From: a virus
DNA length: 22,039 nt
IMG/VR virus record: IMGVR_UViG_3300002231_000781
Span: 1-22,039 of that record
Strand: one strand, 5' to 3'
Shown: one piece after another, positions 1 to 19,759 of the stretch
Layout: every line of letters begins with the position of its first letter
Position numbering within the stretch: position 1 is the first letter of the stretch
The notes under the pieces: generated by a model
What the model saw: only the letters and a program-made list of their open reading frames with translations
Told to the model about the DNA's origin: nothing
The model's database searches: none
Position numbers and translations under genes: made by a program

Positions 1-2491
1 CTTCACAATCAACCTCGGATTGGATTTTCCACTTGAACGTTTCCTTCTCACCCTCGGGGGTGTATTCGGATTCAACGTTCTTGACCATGGTTCCTTCCCG
101 GGTTGCGATCTCGCGGATCTTGCCCGGCAACTTGTCGCCGCCCTTGACCCGCTCGAACTTCGTGCGCTGGATCTGATCCGAGTTATCGACCAGGGCGTCG
201 AGAACTTTCCGGCGCGCGCGCAGGGGTTCCTTCCGCAGATCGGAACCCTTCGAAAGCATGACGTCAAAAGCCTTGAAGCGGAAGGCCTTATCGTCAGACG
301 AATCGGCCGACTGCAAATACGCCGTAACATCGGAATGCCCCAGGCGCTGACGGCCACGCATCTTGACCATTTCCCCGGCGATGATATAATCGTCGCCATT
401 CTCGGACTTGGCGTCTTCAACGATGTTCGGAAACTTCGCCGAATGTTCGTTGCCTTCATCGGAGAAGATCTTGACATCATCGCCCTTGCGATGGATTTCC
501 ATCCAAACGCCGTCGTATTTGGGCTCGATGAAATACTCGCCCTCAAGATCGGCAAAGCCCTCTATGTCGAAAAATTCGTTGTTCTTCGAACCGGATTTCC
601 GGGGTTTGACCGGACCAGCAGGAACACCGAATTTCAGATCCGCAACCTTGTTGACAAGCTGCACACCGCAATGGTCGCAGAGCTCCATGGATCCGATTTC
701 ATACGGAAGACCGCATTCACAATTGGCCGACTTTTTGCCTTCCAGATAGGCCTTATCGGGGGTATGCTTGTGCAAACCCTTGGGATTGGAAGCGTCATGT
801 CGATGCTTTCCTTCCTTTTTTTCGATGCTCCATACTTCAGTATGAACACCGTCAGTACCATCTTCATGACTGTGATCCCCGGCCTTTGTGCCGCGGGATC
901 GGCTATGCCGATGTTGGCCTTTAGGATTCGATTTGTCATGGCTGTGGGTAGCTACGGCATCAGACCCTTTCTGAGGGGCCAACAGATCCTCCTTGGCGCT
1001 GGATCCATCTGCAGCGTTTTCGGACTCTTCTGCAGGGGCGTTACCGGGTTCGGGCTCACCCGAAGCGGGTTCGCCAGTCTCGCCAGCTTCTCCGGCACCG
1101 CTTTCATCGGCTGCAGATTCGCCGCTCATCGGATCGGTTTCGCTATCTGTAGATTCGTCTGTCTGATCTTGCCCGCCCTCGGGCTCATTTTCCGGCGCTT
1201 CAGCACCAGCCGGTTCGGCATCACTTCCTGTGCCTGCCTCTCCTTCTGCAGCTTCACCACCTTCGGTCTCGCCTTCCCCGCCCTGATCGTCGGGAGCATT
1301 CCCCCCCGGGGTATTATCCGGTTGGCCTTCGCCTTCGGACTCTTGCCCGGCGGTTCCTTCGGGTTCGCCACCTGCGTTCTCAGGTTCACCGGTAGCCGGT
1401 TCACCTTCGCCCTCGCCTGCTTCGGACTCAGCGGTCGAAGATCCCGCTTCACCTTCACCGGCTGGCTGGCTGTCGGCTGCGCCTTCGCCATCGGTGGCTG
1501 GTGCGTCGCCTGATTTTCCTTCGGCTGATTCTGCCGTTTTCGGCTCAGTTTCGCCAGTTTTACCAGTATTGTCAGTTTCCGTGCTTTCCGTGTTAGACGT
1601 CCCGTCCGTTTGATTTTTTTGGTCCTCCTCCGGCGACGCGGACTCCAATTTCACCACGCTCCCACATTTACATTCAGAAGGCAACTCGCCTCTCACCGCT
1701 ACCAAAGCTTCACATTTGCCGCATTTTACGACCTTGACATCCTTCTCGCCTGCTGCTTTCAGCGCTTCTTCGACAGCATCATAACCAATTTTCTCTTCGT
1801 CAGATAACGCGCTGTTCAGCGATCCGGCTGTTTTCTGAAATGCACCACGATATACGTGGCTCAGCTCAGCAACGCCTTTGATCTGGCTCGGATAATAATA
1901 GCACACTTGCTTCTCGCCACCGACGTCGTAATCCTCGCCCAATTTGTGGTCGCACTTTGAAATGACCATCTGCTGACCAAAGAAGTTTACCGAATCCCAC
2001 TTCGTGTGGCAAATGGAGCAACGGGCTTCGGTATACCAATAACTGATGCTTCCTTCGCTCCTGATCCCGGCGTCGATCTCCCTGGCGATCTTCTCATATT
2101 CGGGGATTCCAGCCAGAAAATAGTACCACGCCTTGACCATCTTTTCGCCGTTCCGCTCCTGCACTTCTGCTTTGTACACTCGCGCCCAGGGCACTTTATC
2201 CATACGATGGCCTTCCATCATCGGAGCACCGGGCAACAGGTTGGCCAACCTGGCCAACGAGCTCACCTTCTTGCCGTTCAGTTCCCGCTCAGGATGAATC
2301 GACATCTTGGTTGTGGGGGATTCGCCAATGCAGAACATGGCCCGAACGTGAATCTCGTCAGTCTTCAACGGACGAAGGGGTCCGTTCTGTTTCAGCCCGT
2401 TGATAAGCTTCAGCTCATCATCGGAAATAGTGTCCTCATACTGGCAGGGTTCGTTCCCGGCCTGGAGTAATGCAAAGAATCGGTGCTTCAT
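1..2491 (-). CDS. Prohead-protease-like domain fused to ATP-dependent DNA ligase (C-terminus beyond window)
   Basis: The frame reads from ATG at 2491 to the left edge with no stop: 830 codons, C-terminus missing. GGAGG lies 7 bases before the ATG; an in-frame-less ATG at 2505 stops after five codons. Residues about 45-230 resemble phage prohead proteases (S78-type): His95 in GHRMDKVPWARV and Ser148 in SEGSISYW match the usual His and Ser motifs, followed by a CSIC cysteine pair at 158-161 and an ELS-VYRGA segment. A CxxC/CxC ribbon lies near 258-280. Residues about 285-500 are an acidic Gly/Glu/Ala/Pro/Ser linker, then a His-rich stretch. A zinc ribbon (C591, C593, C605, C608) precedes the ligase adenylation domain: motif I K658-Y-D-G, AGEMV at 705-709, FKAFDVM at 739-745, EGTMVK at 799-804 and a motif V-like FKWKI at 819-823. 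Lys658 should be the AMP-accepting residue. The ligase call is strong and the protease call is good. The OB-fold domain is not in view. Confidence 0.85.
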   Translation of the reverse strand, partial: MKHRFFALLQAGNEPCQYEDTISDDELKLINGLKQNGPLRPLKTDEIHVRAMFCIGESPTTKMSIHPERELNGKKVSSLARLANLLPGAPMMEGHRMDKVPWARVYKAEVQERNGEKMVKAWYYFLAGIPEYEKIAREIDAGIRSEGSISYWYTEARCSICHTKWDSVNFFGQQMVISKCDHKLGEDYDVGGEKQVCYYYPSQIKGVAELSHVYRGAFQKTAGSLNSALSDEEKIGYDAVEEALKAAGEKDVKVVKCGKCEALVAVRGELPSECKCGSVVKLESASPEEDQKNQTDGTSNTESTETDNTGKTGETEPKTAESAEGKSGDAPATDGEGAADSQPAGEGEAGSSTAESEAGEGEGEPATGEPENAGGEPEGTAGQESEGEGQPDNTPGGNAPDDQGGEGETEGGEAAEGEAGTGSDAEPAGAEAPENEPEGGQDQTDESTDSETDPMSGESAADESGAGEAGETGEPASGEPEPGNAPAEESENAADGSSAKEDLLAPQKGSDAVATHSHDKSNPKGQHRHSRSRGTKAGDHSHEDGTDGVHTEVWSIEKKEGKHRHDASNPKGLHKHTPDKAYLEGKKSANCECGLPYEIGSMELCDHCGVQLVNKVADLKFGVPAGPVKPRKSGSKNNEFFDIEGFADLEGEYFIEPKYDGVWMEIHRKGDDVKIFSDEGNEHSAKFPNIVEDAKSENGDDYIIAGEMVKMRGRQRLGHSDVTAYLQSADSSDDKAFRFKAFDVMLSKGSDLRKEPLRARRKVLDALVDNSDQIQRTKFERVKGGDKLPGKIREIATREGTMVKNVESEYTPEGEKETFKWKIQSEVDCE

Positions 2492-4511: not shown

Positions 4512-4816
4512 TGGCAAAAACCAAAACCCCGAAAATCCCCCACATGATATCGACCACCGAAATGAATCATCGCCTCCTGGCCGAAATCAGGGTGCTCGGC
4601 CGGATCTTCGGATTTGGCGCGATCATGCAGGCCACCAATGCGGCATGGAACCACCAGGCCCTCGAGCTGAGACGCCCGGGTGAAGAGCGCACAATCGGGC
4701 CGGCTGCGGCAACGACAGTGCTCTGCGAGTGCCCGGAACCCGGCAAATGCGAATGGTGCTGCGGATCCGGTTGGCTCACTAAACACGTAAAATCGTTGAA
4801 GGAGAAAAAGGCATGA
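4511..4816 (+). CDS. Small hypothetical protein with DnaJ-like zinc-finger tail
   Basis: The start chosen is ATG 4511, which shares one base with the preceding stop and gives 101 residues. The same frame stays open upstream, but that part lies within the previous gene. Residues 20-60 form likely helices (NHRLLAEIRVLGRIFG, then IMQATNAAWNHQALEL). The tail CECPEPGKCEWCCGSGW (about residues 76-92) has the CxC...CxxCxGxG spacing seen in DnaJ-type and tRNA-synthetase-type zinc fingers. The function is unknown. The stop overlaps the next ATG (ATGA). Confidence 0.6.
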   Translation: MAKTKTPKIPHMISTTEMNHRLLAEIRVLGRIFGFGAIMQATNAAWNHQALELRRPGEERTIGPAAATTVLCECPEPGKCEWCCGSGWLTKHVKSLKEKKA

Positions 4817-5655
4817 CAGAAAAAAGTAAGGCTTCCTGCTCGAACTGCTTTCATCACTGCGTTTGCAGTATTGACCGATCCATGTACGGAAACAGCGTTA
4901 TCACCCTGGGGTCCGATACCACATTGACCCTATATCCAAAACCCGGGGACGTACTGTTCGGAGAGCTGCAGGATCTATGCGCCCGCTACTGCGACCATTA
5001 CCTGTCCGTGGGCCAGGGGAAAGACACAATCGCGGCCGTGCCAATCGAGGGCCACGGGTCATACTTCCCCTTGGGTAAATTCATCCACGACCAAAAGGCC
5101 TGGTCAGAAAAGACCTTTGGGTCCGGCACCCGCACCGAGGGCATTTTGCGGCACATCGAAAAAGAAATGGCAGAGATCCGGCAGGATCCCACGGACATTA
5201 TGGAATGGACCGACATTCTCCTGCTAACCCTTGATGGAATATGGCGCCGGGGATTCGATGCTTCGGCGATCTGCTCCGCCCTGGTCGCAAAGCAAACCCA
5301 AAACTTCCACCGGGAATGGCCCGCAGCTGGGCCACAGGATGAACCAAACGAGCACATTAAAACCCATGAAAAGGTAGGCCCGATATCGCAAGGCCGGATC
5401 CATGTAAACCAAGTGTACCGAATTCAAAACAACTTCCACAAATCGGAGTCAAGCCCGACATATCGTATCATGGGTGCATGGACCAAAACCGTAGGCGGTC
5501 ACTGCTGTTTGGTCCGCACCGACGGCAAGGGACACGCGTACGCCGGTAAAATGGTACACGTAAAAAGCGTGTGGGATATCTCAGCCCGGGAATTCGAACT
5601 CATCACCGACGGAAAGCCAGCATGGTTCCGCCTGGTCAAGGAGGACGAATCATGA
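4813..5655 (+). CDS. dATP/dGTP pyrophosphohydrolase (DUF550/MazZ-like) domain protein
   Basis: This 280-residue protein starts at ATG 4813 in an ATGA overlap, with AGGAG upstream. Residues about 93-172 match DUF550, known from phages as a dATP/dGTP pyrophosphohydrolase of the all-alpha NTP-pyrophosphatase superfamily: FGSGTRTEGILRHIEKEM, then EWTDILLLTLDGIWRRGF and an ALVAKQ-N-R-WP ending. The metal-binding pairs E118/E121 and E131/D134 are intact. The domain is flanked by a Cys-rich N-terminus (CSNCFHHCVC, residues 9-18) and a roughly 95-residue C-terminal beta-rich extension of unknown role (VYRIQ...WFRLV). It would convert dNTPs to dNMPs plus pyrophosphate, shaping nucleotide pools for phage DNA synthesis. 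In diaminopurine phages MazZ works with PurZ; no PurZ is visible here. Confidence 0.8.
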   Translation: MTEKSKASCSNCFHHCVCSIDRSMYGNSVITLGSDTTLTLYPKPGDVLFGELQDLCARYCDHYLSVGQGKDTIAAVPIEGHGSYFPLGKFIHDQKAWSEKTFGSGTRTEGILRHIEKEMAEIRQDPTDIMEWTDILLLTLDGIWRRGFDASAICSALVAKQTQNFHREWPAAGPQDEPNEHIKTHEKVGPISQGRIHVNQVYRIQNNFHKSESSPTYRIMGAWTKTVGGHCCLVRTDGKGHAYAGKMVHVKSVWDISAREFELITDGKPAWFRLVKEDES

Positions 5656-9873: not shown

Positions 9874-9889
9874 CAATTTGCCACATTAT

Positions 9890-9918
9890 TTGACAGCGCG
9901 TGCAGTCCGGGTTATATT
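9890..9918 (+). promoter_or_regulatory. Strong sigma70 promoter for the head genes
   Basis: TTGACA (9890-9895), a 17-base spacer and TATATT (9913-9918) form a near-consensus promoter 26 bases before the ATG at 9944. It is the best promoter match in the window and stands at the boundary between early and structural genes. No dyad overlaps it. Confidence 0.75.
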
Positions 9919-9943
9919 CCAGAAAAAAGGGAGATTTGTAAAA

Positions 9944-10456
9944 ATGAACATTCTCGAACGTATTGAGCAATTGATCGACGAGTTGGATTCAAAACCAACC
10001 TCCCTTGATTTTGGCTTCATCCGCACTGTTCTTGTGGACGCCCGTGAAGCTGTCGTTGATGGACTCCAGCGGTCTAAAGACGCACAGAATTTCGACGCAT
10101 TGAAACAAGAATCGGCGCGGCTGACTGATAAAGCAACGGACCTCGTAGGCCGTCTTGATTCCGCCACGGCACAGATTGAATCGCTGAAAAACAACGAGTC
10201 TTGCCTGGGCGACCTTTTTGCTCACATGAAAAAGGTAGCCTTGGGACGTGCACAAATTCTGCACAAAGACCCCGAAGTTTTGTCAGCGACAAAGCGAACC
10301 ATTGAAGAGTGCAATTCCGTCCAGCGATTCCTTGAGATCAATTCAAGGATCGAGCAGGACTTCGAAAAGCATTTCCGAAATGGGGACCATGCAGTGGGTC
10401 TCGGCAAAGGCAGCAAGCGAGTAATCCAACATAATCACTACAAGGTAGGAGGATAG
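9944..10456 (+). CDS. Coiled-coil head-module protein, possible scaffold
   Basis: The start is ATG 9944 with GGGAG 10 bases upstream, just after the 9890 promoter; the product has 170 residues. It is almost entirely helical. Residues about 45-105 (LKQESARLTDKATDLVGRL, then SATAQIESLKNNESCLGDLF) have heptad-like spacing. The C-terminus is basic and Gly/His-rich (GKGSKRVIQHNHYKVGG). A helical, charged protein encoded just before the decoration and capsid genes would suit a scaffold. There is no sequence family to confirm it, and it could also be a head-associated or host-directed protein. Confidence 0.6.
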   Translation: MNILERIEQLIDELDSKPTSLDFGFIRTVLVDAREAVVDGLQRSKDAQNFDALKQESARLTDKATDLVGRLDSATAQIESLKNNESCLGDLFAHMKKVALGRAQILHKDPEVLSATKRTIEECNSVQRFLEINSRIEQDFEKHFRNGDHAVGLGKGSKRVIQHNHYKVGG

Positions 10457-10460
10457 CTCA

Positions 10461-10883
10461 ATGGCAGTAGCCCGAGTTGTCAATAACCTCCAAGTTGGTA
10501 AAGTCGAAGGCACATTCGTCAACGACACTACCAGCAACGAGGACTTCACGCAGACCGACCTTGACAATCGTTTGTATGCTTGCGAAACGGCCGGGAACAA
10601 CACCGTCCAGCAGTCCAACGCATCCGACAAACCGTTGTTTGGAGCCGTTCAGGCTGTGTCCCTTGAACTCTCTTCGAGCATTCCAGTCGAAGTTGTGGTT
10701 CAAATTTCGGGGATCGCCGAATTCAAAGGTGCGGCCACCATGCCAACCGCAGGCGACAAGGTCTTCTGTAACACTGGCCTGGTCAAACAGGACGCCACCG
10801 CCGACACGCTGTTGGCAAACCTTAAATCAAGGGGCATTGTGACCAATGTCCACGATACCAACTACATCGAGATCCTCCTGTAG
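10461..10883 (+). CDS. Probable capsid decoration protein
   Basis: This 140-residue protein starts at ATG 10461, with AGGAGG in the end of the preceding gene. It is beta-rich, without cysteine clusters or membrane segments. The second half (GAATMPTAGDKVFCNTGLVK, then SRGIVTNVHDTNYIEILL) resembles small beta-barrel head decoration or stabilising proteins, in which a GDKV turn and a final 'value of a property' strand are common. It directly precedes the major capsid gene, the usual place for such proteins. Confidence 0.6.
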   Translation: MAVARVVNNLQVGKVEGTFVNDTTSNEDFTQTDLDNRLYACETAGNNTVQQSNASDKPLFGAVQAVSLELSSSIPVEVVVQISGIAEFKGAATMPTAGDKVFCNTGLVKQDATADTLLANLKSRGIVTNVHDTNYIEILL

Positions 10884-10916: not shown

Positions 10917-12044
10917 ATGTTTATGAATGTGGACCTTACCGCTGCCAAGACGAATGTCGAATTCCTGGCAGGGTACAAATCAGACCCGTACAAAATGTAC
11001 AGCGATCTTGAGGCCGAAGGGGGAACCCTCACCGAGAAGCTGGAATCAACCGACGCTTCAGACATCAATCCCGCGACGGGCTTGCCCGAGCACGGCGTGG
11101 ATGCGCTGAGTCGGGCGCTCATGGCAGCCGACATTAAGTTGGCCGGCCCGGGCGCAATCATGATTTCTCAGCTCGTTGACCGCGGCCTGGTGCTCATGCC
11201 CGAACTCGTCTTGCGCGAAATTCAGGCCGGTATGAAAATGACCAAACGTTCAGACTATACCAAGCTGGTAGCCAGCACGGTTGAGTCGGTCGGTCCTTCG
11301 TACCACCCCGCATACATTCCCAACCTTAACCAAACTGCACCGGCAAGCACGATCGGCCTTCAAGGCAAGTCCCTCGCCAAGCGCGCAGCTGCGGCTAAAG
11401 GCGGAATGTTCCCCAAAACGTCCATTCGTTACCGCGAAAAAGACATCGTAATCAAAGATTACGGCCGGGAATTTGACGTATCCTACAAGATGCTCAAAGC
11501 TATGCCCTGGACCGAATTTGCGATCTTCCTGCACCTCGTTGGCGTTCAGTTGGCCGGCGAAAAACTGTTCGACATCTATGATCTTGCGATCACAGGTGAC
11601 GGCACAGTGGGTGCGGCCACCGATACCTTTTCCGGTACCAGTGGCAGCCTTGTGTACACAGACCTCGTGGACAACTACGTGTCCTACGACCAGGCGTTTG
11701 AAATGAACGCTATGCTGTGTCCTCAAAGCTCACTCGAAACGATCCTTACCATGGCTCAGTTCCAAGACCCGCAGGCTGGCTTTAGCTTCCAGCGCACCGG
11801 CGAATTGGTGACTCCCATTGGTTCCGAGTTGTTTCAGGTTCCCTCCGTTCCGAGCACCACGCCCACCGCAACGGTGATCGCTACGTTGGACAAACGCTTT
11901 GCTGTACGCGAAACCAACAGCCAAAAGCTAATGGTGGAAGCGAAGAAGATCATTGAACTCAAGTTCGAAGAAGCTGTCGTTTCTGAAGAAACTGTGTTCT
12001 CGATCATCGCAGATGGCGCCCTGAAACGCATCGTGTGGACATGA
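10917..12044 (+). CDS. Major capsid protein (HK97-like fold expected)
   Basis: This 375-residue protein starts at ATG 10917, with AGGGAG upstream. Length, position and pattern fit an HK97-type major capsid protein. The N-terminal region of about 80-100 residues is helical and charged (DLEAEGGTLTEKLEST and following), and could be a delta domain removed on maturation. It is followed by an E-loop/P-domain-like middle (IRYREKDIVIKDYGREFDVSYKM split over residues 169-191), a Thr/Ser/Gly-rich A-domain segment, and a beta-strand end (LMVEAKKIIELKFEEAVVSE). The likely maturation protease is encoded on the opposite strand at 1-2491. Cleavage itself is inferred. Confidence 0.75.
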   Translation: MFMNVDLTAAKTNVEFLAGYKSDPYKMYSDLEAEGGTLTEKLESTDASDINPATGLPEHGVDALSRALMAADIKLAGPGAIMISQLVDRGLVLMPELVLREIQAGMKMTKRSDYTKLVASTVESVGPSYHPAYIPNLNQTAPASTIGLQGKSLAKRAAAAKGGMFPKTSIRYREKDIVIKDYGREFDVSYKMLKAMPWTEFAIFLHLVGVQLAGEKLFDIYDLAITGDGTVGAATDTFSGTSGSLVYTDLVDNYVSYDQAFEMNAMLCPQSSLETILTMAQFQDPQAGFSFQRTGELVTPIGSELFQVPSVPSTTPTATVIATLDKRFAVRETNSQKLMVEAKKIIELKFEEAVVSEETVFSIIADGALKRIVWT

Positions 12045-16969: not shown

Positions 16970-19759
16970 ATGGCAGAAATGACGAGGCATTACAACAAGG
17001 CAACATCGGTATACTTTCCTCTTGTTGACTTCGGGGCAACTGATTTTGTTGCAGGCGTGACCATCGCGGCTGGAGACGCTCAAATTTCCCTAGACGGTGC
17101 TGCGTTTGGAAATACAAACTCAGTTTTCGTCGATGAAGGAAATGGTATTTATTCACTCGCTCTCACGGCGGCGGAAACGTCGGCAGCCAATATTGTCATC
17201 ACGATTATCGACCAAACAGCCACCAAAGAATGGGAAGACCAGGCAATTGAGATTGTAACATTCGGCCATTCGAGTGCTGAACTGCTCAGCGCGAACGATG
17301 CTGAAATTTTAATCAAACAGCTATCTGTCATTAATACCGGGGGGTCAGCTATTATCGCAACCGCGGCAGGAAGTAACGGTAGCGGTGCGGCCTTTACAGG
17401 TAACGGGTCGGGAGCTGGGATTTTCGCCAGCGGTGCGATTGAAGGAGGGTCGGGGCACGGCATCGAAGCATTAGGTGCAGGAGCAGGGAACGGAATAGAC
17501 TGTTCTTCGGAGACCTCCGGAGACGGAATTCAATCAGTAGGAGAAGGTGCAGGTCATGGAATTTCCGCCACCAGTAATGGAACTGGCGCGGGCATGCGGT
17601 TAATTGGTGGAGCAACAAGCGGAGCAGGACTCTTTACAAGCGGGTCAAGTGGCGGAGTTGGATCAGGTATTTGGGCTCTCGGCGGTAACGGAGGCTCATA
17701 CGGTGCACTTTTCCAAGGCACTGACGACACCGGAACAGAGGCCCTTGGGTTTGGTATGAACATAGTAAGTTCAGGTAGTGGAGCAGAAGCTCTTGCCGTC
17801 CAAGGAAACGGTGGCGAAGGTGCTGTCTTTACGGGCGGCGCTTCGCAGCCCGGTCTTGTTCTAACCGGCGCACCGGGACTCAAAGCCCTTGGCATTACAA
17901 ACGGGAACGGCGCTGAGCTCACAGGCGCAGGATCAGGCGAAGGTCTGGTCGCAACAGGTGGTGCGACAGGACATGGCATCTACGCCCTTGGCGGAGCCAC
18001 ATCAGGCGACGGGTTTCGGGCAGAAGGCCAGACTCTCGGTTACGGCGTTTACTTTTCTGGTGCAGGCGCAAGTCGTGAAGGAATGTTTGTCATCTCCACC
18101 GGCGAAGCCGATGCAGCTGAGTTTAGGTCTGGCGGCACAGGGAACGCTTCTATACGTCTCGCTCAAACTACCTCCGGGGACGGTCTGGTAGCAGCAGGCA
18201 CTGGGTCAGGTCACGGCATTAACGCTGTAGGCGGCGCAACTGGCAACGGTATCACTATCGCAGGAGGCGGAACGTCCGGTAATGGCATAAGTATTTCCTG
18301 TACCAGCGGCCACGGGATTGTTTCTGTCGGTGGCACGAATGGTCATGGATTCAGCAGTCAAGGCGCAGGAACAGGTGACGGCATCAGCGCCATGGGTGGC
18401 AGCGGAACGGGTCACGGTATCGACGCCCAGGGCGGGGCAACAAGCGGCGCAGGAATGAAGATATCTTCGATTGCCGGCAGTTCCCCCGCAATTGATATTG
18501 ATTCGGACGGTATCGGCATTGACCTTACATCGCCGAGCGCAGACGGCCTACAGATTACCGCAGCTTCTTCAAAAGGCATTCACATTGAATCCGATGACGT
18601 CGGTCTGCATATCGCTTCCACCAGCGGCGTTGGTATCGAGGTTTCATCCGGTAACACGTCGGCAGAGCCAGCAGTTAAATTGACCGGAGACGGCGGGGCC
18701 GCAGGTCTTCAGGTAGTTGGTGGTTCGTCAGGACCAGGCATTCAAGCCACGGGTAACGGATCAGCGTCAGGAATCAGCACAACAGGAGGAGCAACCGGCC
18801 ATGGCCTACTTGCCACGGGCGGGGCAACCTCTGGACAGGGCATTCGCGCCACTGGTGGGGCAACGGGAGGCAATGGCGCTTCTTTTATCGCCACAGGTTC
18901 TGGAAAGTCCGGTATCTTCGCTTCCGGCACAACTACCGCAGCAGGACTTTGGCTCGAAGGTGGAGCAACTGGAAACGGTCTCCACACGTTAGGCGGAGCA
19001 ACTTCCGGCGACGGCATTCACGCTGAAGCGCAAACAAGTGGAGATGGAATCGACGCCGTTGGAGCAGGAGCAGGGAATGGCATGCTCTCCACGGGCGGAG
19101 CAACCGGTCACGGCGCAAGACTTGTCGGTGGTGCTACTTCCGGTAGTGGCCTCAGTGCATACGGCCCAGGCACAAACGCAGTTGGTATCGGCGCCTACGG
19201 ATCAGGCACAAAGCCTGGTATCGAATCCGAAGGCGGCGTCACTGGTGAAGGGATGACCCTTACCGCAGGAATGTCAGGCGGCGTAGGACTGGAGATCACA
19301 AGCAGTGTAGATTCGGGCATTAAGTCCACCGCAGCCGGAAACGGTCAAGGGCTGGAACTTATTGGCTTCGGCACAGGCTCGGGACTTAAAGCGACGGGCG
19401 GGGCAACCGGCCACGGTGCGCAGCTCCTCGGCGGAGCAACTTCCGGGGACGGATTTCATTCCGAAGCTCAAACCGAAGGTGATGGTGTTGAGTATGTTGG
19501 TGCGGGGTCCGGTGTGGACTTCAACGCCGATATCGGATCAGCGTCAGCCATTACGATCTCAGATGAAATTCTAAAACGAGGCGTCTCAAACGTCGAAGAC
19601 GCGGCAGACTCTCATTCACTTGCAACCATAATCCTTGCCACTCTGGAATCTTCGATCTCCGGGAACACTTGGACGATCCGTAAAACCGGAGGCGGGACAT
19701 TCACCACCAAAACAATCGGCACCGATACTTCGGCCCAGCCGGTCGTGAGCGTAACATAA
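16970..19759 (+). CDS. Glycine-rich 11-12-residue repeat fibre protein
   Basis: This 929-residue protein starts at ATG 16970, one base after the previous stop, with AGAGGAG upstream. Residues 1-115 form a beta domain (ATSVYFPLVDFGATDFVAG, then EDQAIEIVTFGH) like N-terminal attachment domains of phage fibre proteins. Residues about 120-850 consist of roughly sixty copies of a Gly-rich unit, consensus GGAT(S)GxG[IFL]x[AS]x. A higher-order block GGATSGDG[FI]...E.QT.G.G recurs three times. Single hydrophobic residues alternate with Ser/Ala, as expected for a stacked beta or polyglycine solenoid. The last 75 residues (SDEILKRGVSNVEDAADSH, then TWTIRKTGG and TFTTKTI) form a capping domain. It is probably a rod-like, trimeric virion fibre. 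No cysteine-rich or enzyme motif is seen. Confidence 0.7.
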   Translation: MAEMTRHYNKATSVYFPLVDFGATDFVAGVTIAAGDAQISLDGAAFGNTNSVFVDEGNGIYSLALTAAETSAANIVITIIDQTATKEWEDQAIEIVTFGHSSAELLSANDAEILIKQLSVINTGGSAIIATAAGSNGSGAAFTGNGSGAGIFASGAIEGGSGHGIEALGAGAGNGIDCSSETSGDGIQSVGEGAGHGISATSNGTGAGMRLIGGATSGAGLFTSGSSGGVGSGIWALGGNGGSYGALFQGTDDTGTEALGFGMNIVSSGSGAEALAVQGNGGEGAVFTGGASQPGLVLTGAPGLKALGITNGNGAELTGAGSGEGLVATGGATGHGIYALGGATSGDGFRAEGQTLGYGVYFSGAGASREGMFVISTGEADAAEFRSGGTGNASIRLAQTTSGDGLVAAGTGSGHGINAVGGATGNGITIAGGGTSGNGISISCTSGHGIVSVGGTNGHGFSSQGAGTGDGISAMGGSGTGHGIDAQGGATSGAGMKISSIAGSSPAIDIDSDGIGIDLTSPSADGLQITAASSKGIHIESDDVGLHIASTSGVGIEVSSGNTSAEPAVKLTGDGGAAGLQVVGGSSGPGIQATGNGSASGISTTGGATGHGLLATGGATSGQGIRATGGATGGNGASFIATGSGKSGIFASGTTTAAGLWLEGGATGNGLHTLGGATSGDGIHAEAQTSGDGIDAVGAGAGNGMLSTGGATGHGARLVGGATSGSGLSAYGPGTNAVGIGAYGSGTKPGIESEGGVTGEGMTLTAGMSGGVGLEITSSVDSGIKSTAAGNGQGLELIGFGTGSGLKATGGATGHGAQLLGGATSGDGFHSEAQTEGDGVEYVGAGSGVDFNADIGSASAITISDEILKRGVSNVEDAADSHSLATIILATLESSISGNTWTIRKTGGGTFTTKTIGTDTSAQPVVSVT
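17340..19520 (+). repeat. Coding repeat region, 33-36-base units
   Basis: DNA such as ggcggagcaac-ttccggcgacgg recurs in many variant copies; the unit is 33 or 36 bases, i.e. 11-12 codons. The higher-order block can be seen starting near 17990, 18991 and 19430. Copies differ mostly at synonymous positions, so the repeat is old or is kept by protein-level selection. Slippage or recombination could change fibre length. Confidence 0.7.

Follow-up and report, generated by a model that had tools for sequence, protein, structure and literature searches.

A gene at the left end of the window joins a putative capsid-maturation protease to a predicted ATP-dependent DNA ligase in one reading frame. By the window we mean the whole stretch of 22,039 nucleotides that was analysed (positions 1 to 22,039 of IMG/VR virus record IMGVR_UViG_3300002231_000781). 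The N-terminal protease domain is separated from the adenylation domain of the ligase by a long acidic linker, in which zinc- and histidine-rich pieces occur. With modest confidence we favour the view that the product is a maturation protease with a C-terminal LigD-like end-healing-and-sealing enzyme, which would be packaged, released by the protease and put to act on the DNA of the virus, probably when the genome enters the cell.

The frame opens at an ATG at position 2491, with a GGAG about 8 bases 5′ of it, and runs on the minus strand through 830 stop-free codons to base 2, which bears out the single protease-like and ligase frame described in the earlier note. Base 1 of the window is base 1 of the 35,184-base record, so it is the record, and not the window alone, that breaks off the 3′ end of the gene; among the frames listed for the opposite end of the record, none on the minus strand is open and could continue it. 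The protease domain takes up residues 1–228 (1808–2491, minus strand, as are all parts of this gene), with the putative catalytic His95 at 2207–2209 and the putative catalytic Ser148, in a GSIS motif, at 2048–2050. Five residues of the same domain, C158, C161, C180, H182 and C197 (1901–2020), may form a zinc site. It is followed by a cysteine-rich, possibly zinc-ribbon-like piece (1640–1726), a low-complexity Glu/Gly/Ala linker of acidic composition (residues 285–505, 977–1639), a histidine-rich HxH segment (residues 513–580, 752–955) and, directly before the ligase, a second cysteine-rich piece (residues 591–610, 662–721), whose CxxC...CxxC pattern has a match in the relative L001. The HxH segment, which may bind metal, is missing in that relative. 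The ligase adenylation domain lies at 23–559, with Lys658 at 518–520. The His95, Ser148, CSIC pair (C158/C161), Lys658 and ligase motifs III, IV and V named in the earlier note all stand at the positions given there.

Several lines of evidence point to a maturation protease in the N-terminal domain. Pfam names the ligase in the window protein and finds no match to a protease family, while among the PHROGs phrog_16951, listed as of 'unknown function', matches residues 20–247 at 6e-8. Two members of the protease family are themselves matched by Pfam, as Peptidase_S78 (6e-5, above the cut-off, in P0010) and S78_2/XkdF (4.6e-5, just below the cut-off, in L013). A tblastn homologue is gene 24 of Brevibacillus phage Jenst, which lies between portal-like and capsid genes, and further homologues occur in two faecal phage contigs with the order TerS-TerL-portal-X-(decoration)-capsid. 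The homologue in Enterococcus phage fHoEfm07 was deposited as a head maturation protease and adjoins a capsid gene of phrog_3922, the family to which the capsid protein of the window also belongs. A scan with two of the protease homologues gave 267 relatives in IMG/VR, 80 of which were kept as loci, and in 63 of these 80 the capsid gene follows the protease directly. A profile built from the proteases of 36 other viruses, with the window left out, matches the window fusion at 1.1e-9, the L001 fusion at 1.1e-5 and the fHoEfm07 head maturation protease at 3.4e-6, and nothing further in the searched stretches of the window and L001 records. Since phrog_16951 matches the faecal proteases at 4e-94, it is a protease family, and its sole match in the window and L001 records is the fusion gene.

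Conservation and structure agree with this assignment. All 38 aligned proteases, and all of eight diverse ones, have His95 and Ser148, and the five Cys/His residues are likewise invariant in the 38. An AlphaFold model of residues 1–235 (pLDDT 77.5, pTM 0.77) has T4 gp21 as its best solved match (Z 9.3, 149 of 165 residues, in the VIA second look), followed by herpesvirus assemblins at Z 5–7, and its best match in BFVD is a 'Prohead serine protease' (1.9e-11). Plain Foldseek of the model against the PDB gave nothing significant, and a profile of the protease alignment had a lone PDB match at 0.38. We regard the N-terminal domain, on sequence and model, as a capsid-maturation protease whose activity is predicted. 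On gene order, the His/Ser motif and the structure match, phrog_16951 and phrog_37798, both listed as of unknown function, are capsid-maturation proteases; examples of their loci are L005 9806–11278, L012 4944–5924 and L013 4971–5885. The same fold is seen in BFVD in other very long phage proteins, A0A4Y6EIL5 of Gordonia phage Pupper (1082 aa) and A0A6J5N5R9 (ferritin/DPS, 679 aa), so cargo enzymes may be joined to maturation proteases more widely.

Unlike their homologues, the fusion genes of the window and of L001 do not stand between portal and capsid genes and are on the opposite strand. In the window the major capsid gene (10917–12044, plus strand; phrog_3922, 1.1e-38) is 8.4 kb away, in agreement with the distance of about 8 kb noticed before. 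Co-expression with the head genes is thus not required. Just upstream of the capsid gene, on the same strand, lie a gene for a decoration-like head protein (10461–10883; phrog_4588, 0.0022) and, before it, a scaffold-like gene (9878–10456), named from a weak coiled-coil match to phrog_1752 (0.037) and from a homologue at the same place in L001. The scaffold function of the window phage therefore appears to reside in this separate gene, which corrects an earlier reading. The decoration-like gene also has a homologue in L001, and the two capsid proteins are 47% identical. As the two phages share head genes that have diverged, the fusion has been kept across considerable divergence. Other genes of the window touch different subjects. 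The product of 4813–5655 has a dATP/dGTP pyrophosphohydrolase domain (PF04447, 1.4e-20) such as phages with modified bases (diaminopurine) are known to encode; no PurZ-type adenylosuccinate synthase was found in the window record or the L001 record. A very long glycine-rich repeat protein of 929 aa (16970–19759) and a beta-helix-like repeat protein, whose frame begins at 19759 and runs to about base 23136 of the record, are probably fibres or spikes.

The C-terminal half of the window protein is an ATP-dependent DNA ligase adenylation domain, with ligase activity predicted from its sequence. Pfam DNA_ligase_A_M (PF01068) covers residues 647–820 at 2.3e-21, and the top NCBIfam matches, dnl1 (7.6e-21) and NHEJ_ligase_lig (9.3e-21), fall well short of the curated cut-offs of these families. 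Lys658 lies in motif I (KYDG), and motifs III (FDVML, 742–746), IV (EGTMVK, 799–804) and V (KWK, 820–822) follow.

What lies beyond the break can be seen in L001, a 55-kb IMG/VR contig from another data set, which has a complete fusion homologue of 1229 aa. Its identity to the window protein is 38% by tblastn and 34% over the whole alignment; the protease domain alone reaches 46%. From the N-terminus onward it consists of protease, a Pro/Thr-rich linker that contains CxxC pieces, ligase (residues 655–834), OB-fold region, nucleotidyltransferase (NTase)-like stretch and a C-terminal 3′-phosphoesterase (PE) domain; the last three parts are seen in L001 and other relatives, the window gene being cut before the OB fold. 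The OB region aligns up to residue 921 with the ligase family phrog_114, and also with the ligase of ANMV-1. The NTase-like stretch takes its name from a motif, GSLVEEGLTTHDID at 963, and an NTase profile gave a single irrelevant match (1.2) and no relative in the PDB. The structure search of L001 was confined to the PE part. Pfam weakly recognises the C-terminal domain as LigD_N (0.012), and phmmer aligns it with the archaeal 3′-phosphoesterase 3p4h at 2.3e-5. A profile of 11 viral PE domains retrieves from the PDB only phosphoesterases of the LigD family (3p4h 1.7e-8, 3p43 1.1e-6, 5dmp 1.7e-3, 3n9b 0.035, 2lj6 0.047), and the predicted PE structure matches the same LigD PE entries at Z 11–17 and nothing else above 5. 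L001 and all other relatives with a PE domain retain the motif HxxxxxxHxDxR, ANMV-1 with one change. The pairing of protease and ligase claimed in the earlier note was right for both halves; the OB, NTase-like and PE parts of the complete relative bring it closer to LigD than to the plain ligase that had been supposed. Pfam reports no AEP-type polymerase domain in the L001 fusion protein. Stand-alone archaeal PE and ligase proteins are also without AEP, so its absence excludes only a canonical three-domain LigD.

The fusion of the window and L001 is not the only one. Searches with the ligase part alone, which are free of context bias, yielded L017, where a ligase-OB-PE-protease-coiled-coil fusion is followed by the capsid gene (phrog_212, 2.8e-79). 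A search with the L017 protein found the same fusion in L029, again with the capsid gene next to it, and, in L030, L031, L032 and L033, proteins that are 48–54% identical to it over the protease-scaffold part. The same protease-scaffold gene adjoins the capsid gene without a ligase in L030, L031 and L033, with a portal gene upstream in L030 and L031. The proteases of L030, L031 and L033 match phrog_15531, head maturation protease, at 3.4e-6 to 6.5e-5, and phrog_1793, head scaffolding protein, matches L029 (8e-5) and L030 (2e-4). In the L017 lineage, to judge by these matches, the ligase-PE module is joined in front of a protease-scaffold gene, the reverse of the window order; this type is called a protease from its position, a His/Ser motif and the PHROG matches. 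Compared HMM to HMM, the window protease and the reverse-fusion protease gave no significant match (E 0.042). The comparison shows no close kinship of the two fused proteases, and the two fusions may thus be independent.

Unfused ligase-PE genes lie beside portal, protease or capsid genes in eight contigs (L004, L018, L019, L020, L022, L025, L026 and L027), which include ANMV-1 and contigs of ANME/Methanosarcinales. L018, L020 and L022 each have an unfused NTase-ligase-PE gene, which in L020 is split; a gene of the protease-scaffold type comes after it, and then the capsid gene. The order in L025 and L027, contigs of Methanosarcinales MAGs, is portal, ligase-PE (split in L027), protease and capsid; the protease matches DUF2213 at 1e-18 and, in L025, also the head maturation protease family phrog_530 at 2e-24. 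In L019, in L026 (Methanophagales) and in ANMV-1 (L004) the ligase comes directly after the portal gene. Linkage of the ligase-PE gene to portal, protease or capsid genes is found in all contigs with readable context. In contrast, the plain ligase of Rhizobium phage RHph_TM3_3_3, found by the same kind of search, is located among integrase and recombination genes, so a place beside head genes is not a general rule for ligases. The two fusion orders and the repeated placement by head genes indicate that the ligase-PE module is part of the head module. Scans with the ANMV-1 ligase alone and with the L001 fusion protein alone gave no further viral relatives. In sampled genomes of the archaeal phylum the ligase was present at E<1e-30 in 3 of 393, a rarity that is expected of viruses.

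Two features of these loci deserve mention in their own right. The ligase-PE gene is split by 2–3.5 kb of other ORFs in L020 (6303–7568/9689–11695) and L027 (647–2344/5849–6919), both archaeal-type contigs. One break falls within the adenylation domain, after the FD motif and before motif IV, and the other separates OB from PE. The insertions hold coiled-coil and fibre-like ORFs, among others, and a mobile insertion or a split enzyme is possible. An ASCH-like domain, without Pfam confirmation, is fused in some viruses to the C-terminus of the portal protein and in others to the N-terminus of the ligase (L018 500–2152, L020 4614–6275, L019 1386–4097, L026 2272–4128), which makes a further link between portal and ligase.

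Prohead proteases are assembled into the prohead together with the scaffold and degrade it at maturation, as in T4, HK97 and the herpesviruses. In the mechanism that we favour the protease domain would carry the fusion into the assembling prohead; once the protease fires, the linker would be cut and the ligase-PE part would remain in the capsid, to exit with the DNA or to act on DNA inside the head. LigD phosphoesterases take off 3′-phosphates and 3′-ribonucleotides so that a ligase can seal. The viral PE would likewise clear 3′ ends blocked by a 3′-phosphate or 3′-ribonucleotide, the ligase would seal nicks or genome ends, and the incoming linear genome could be repaired or circularised without host ligase. 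Such healing and sealing would most likely take place at entry, before any viral protein exists. The idea of packaging and entry, put forward earlier for the window gene, gains independent support from the 3′-phosphoesterase in the family, the reverse-order protease-scaffold fusion and the adjacency to head genes in archaeal viruses. A search for Ku in six virus records, each of which may be incomplete, gave no match, so some other factor would have to bridge the ends. Cohesive ends may suffice, the host may bridge, or nick repair may be the main job. In its widest form the proposal is more tentative, and we hold it slightly short of even: viruses of bacteria and of methane-cycling archaea may package their own LigD-like break-repair enzyme, two lineages by way of a protease fusion, for virion-borne, Ku-free end joining at entry.

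The main rival to action at entry is action at packaging or assembly, when the ligase, in the prohead or at the portal, would mend nicks or blocked ends of the concatemer and prevent the motor from stalling, to be lost or inert later. The unfused relatives directly after the portal gene and the tie of the fused ones to the protease would suit it, and the pattern of genes is the same for both stages. Fusion to the protease, in contrast, would place the ligase inside the shell with the scaffold, away from the motor face through which DNA comes in, and we consider this alternative improbable. An ordinary cytoplasmic enzyme of replication or repair is likewise unlikely in our estimation. Phage ligases are common and mostly replicative, the fusion of the window and L001 faces the other way from the head genes, and genes of the replication type are near it in the window; fusion and head neighbourhood would on this account reflect shared late expression, with the parts separated by proteolysis. 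Against it speak the two fusion orders and the portal, protease or capsid genes adjoining the module wherever context can be read, as well as the PE domain, which is typical of double-strand-break repair and not of replication.

Very little speaks for an inactive protease domain that would serve as a mere targeting tag to bring the ligase into the head while another enzyme matures the capsid. The scaffold-like gene is indeed separate and the protease gene has moved away from the capsid gene, yet the fusions of both the window and L001 retain the His/Ser pair together with its neighbouring residues, and searches of the two records, which may be incomplete, gave no second protease of the S78, ClpP or phrog_16951 type. 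Finally, the frame is cut by a contig end, which might suggest two genes joined by an assembly or frameshift error, but such an artefact is ruled out by the same architecture in one complete 1229-aa frame on the independent contig L001. The other finding that would have overturned the earlier note, a lack of protease profile hits, did not come about either.

Known capsid-maturation proteases comprise T4 gp21 (S77), HK97 gp4 (S78), XkdF-like enzymes (S78_2) and the herpesvirus assemblin fold. The fusion protein has the fold and the His/Ser pair in common with them, and in its relatives the gene also lies between those for portal and capsid, often with a coiled-coil scaffold part. It differs in the LigD-like ligase as C-terminal partner (continued by OB, NTase-like and PE parts in L001), in the separate scaffold-like gene and in the conserved, zinc-like Cys/His site within the protease. 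With the LigD-type NHEJ enzymes of bacteria and archaea the viral proteins share a compact ligase core (adenylation and putative OB domains) with a 3′-phosphoesterase and its HxxxxxxHxDxR motif, and the viral PE resembles archaeal (including Methanocella) and Pseudomonas PE structures. Unlike those enzymes, they are encoded in head modules, have an NTase-like stretch, show no AEP and come with no Ku that was found, and their PE stands after the ligase and is sometimes repeated. The 'ATP-dependent DNA ligase' of ANMV-1 (AJP62006) has the same NTase-like, ligase, OB and PE parts and is homologous along ligase-OB and PE; it differs in being unfused to a protease, in its place between the portal gene and a gene for a Cys-rich protein, and in being annotated as a ligase only. 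In mycobacteriophages Omega and Corndog a phage Ku and the host LigD circularise the genome. The idea of end joining to circularise an incoming genome is the same, with the roles reversed: there the virus has the Ku and the host the ligase; in the present case the ligase would come from the virus, and the search for Ku gave no match.

Phage polyvalent proteins have been described (Iyer et al. 2017, PMC5512222) as large enzymes of several domains whose genes adjoin those for portal and head proteins, and packaging and injection have been proposed for them. The location of ligase-PE genes next to the portal gene agrees with what that article outlines for packaged phage enzymes. Its passages on ligases concern RNA ligases, with no DNA ligase-PE and no maturation-protease fusion among them. 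In the relevant parts of the surveys checked, a protease-ligase fusion, a LigD-like composition and placement in the head module are not described. We likewise found in open-access papers no description of a fusion of prohead protease and ligase, for which the earlier note had also known no example, or of ligase-PE genes in head modules. The protease and ligase parts are each of known kinds; the fusion, the LigD-like viral composition and the recurrence in head modules appear to be what is new. There is a chance that the fusion represents a new kind of virion-borne repair.

The analysis assigns a function to PHROG 16951, that of head maturation protease, and one to the neighbourhood of the ANMV-1 'ligase'. 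It also points to 3′-blocked ends as a problem for viruses in packaging or entry, and the fusion offers a direct handle on a protease-released ligase. If our reading is true, an enzyme borne in the particle can repair or circularise the genome of a tailed virus independently of the host ligase, which would explain why a ligase of the break-repair type with a domain that cleans 3′ ends recurs in the head modules of viruses.
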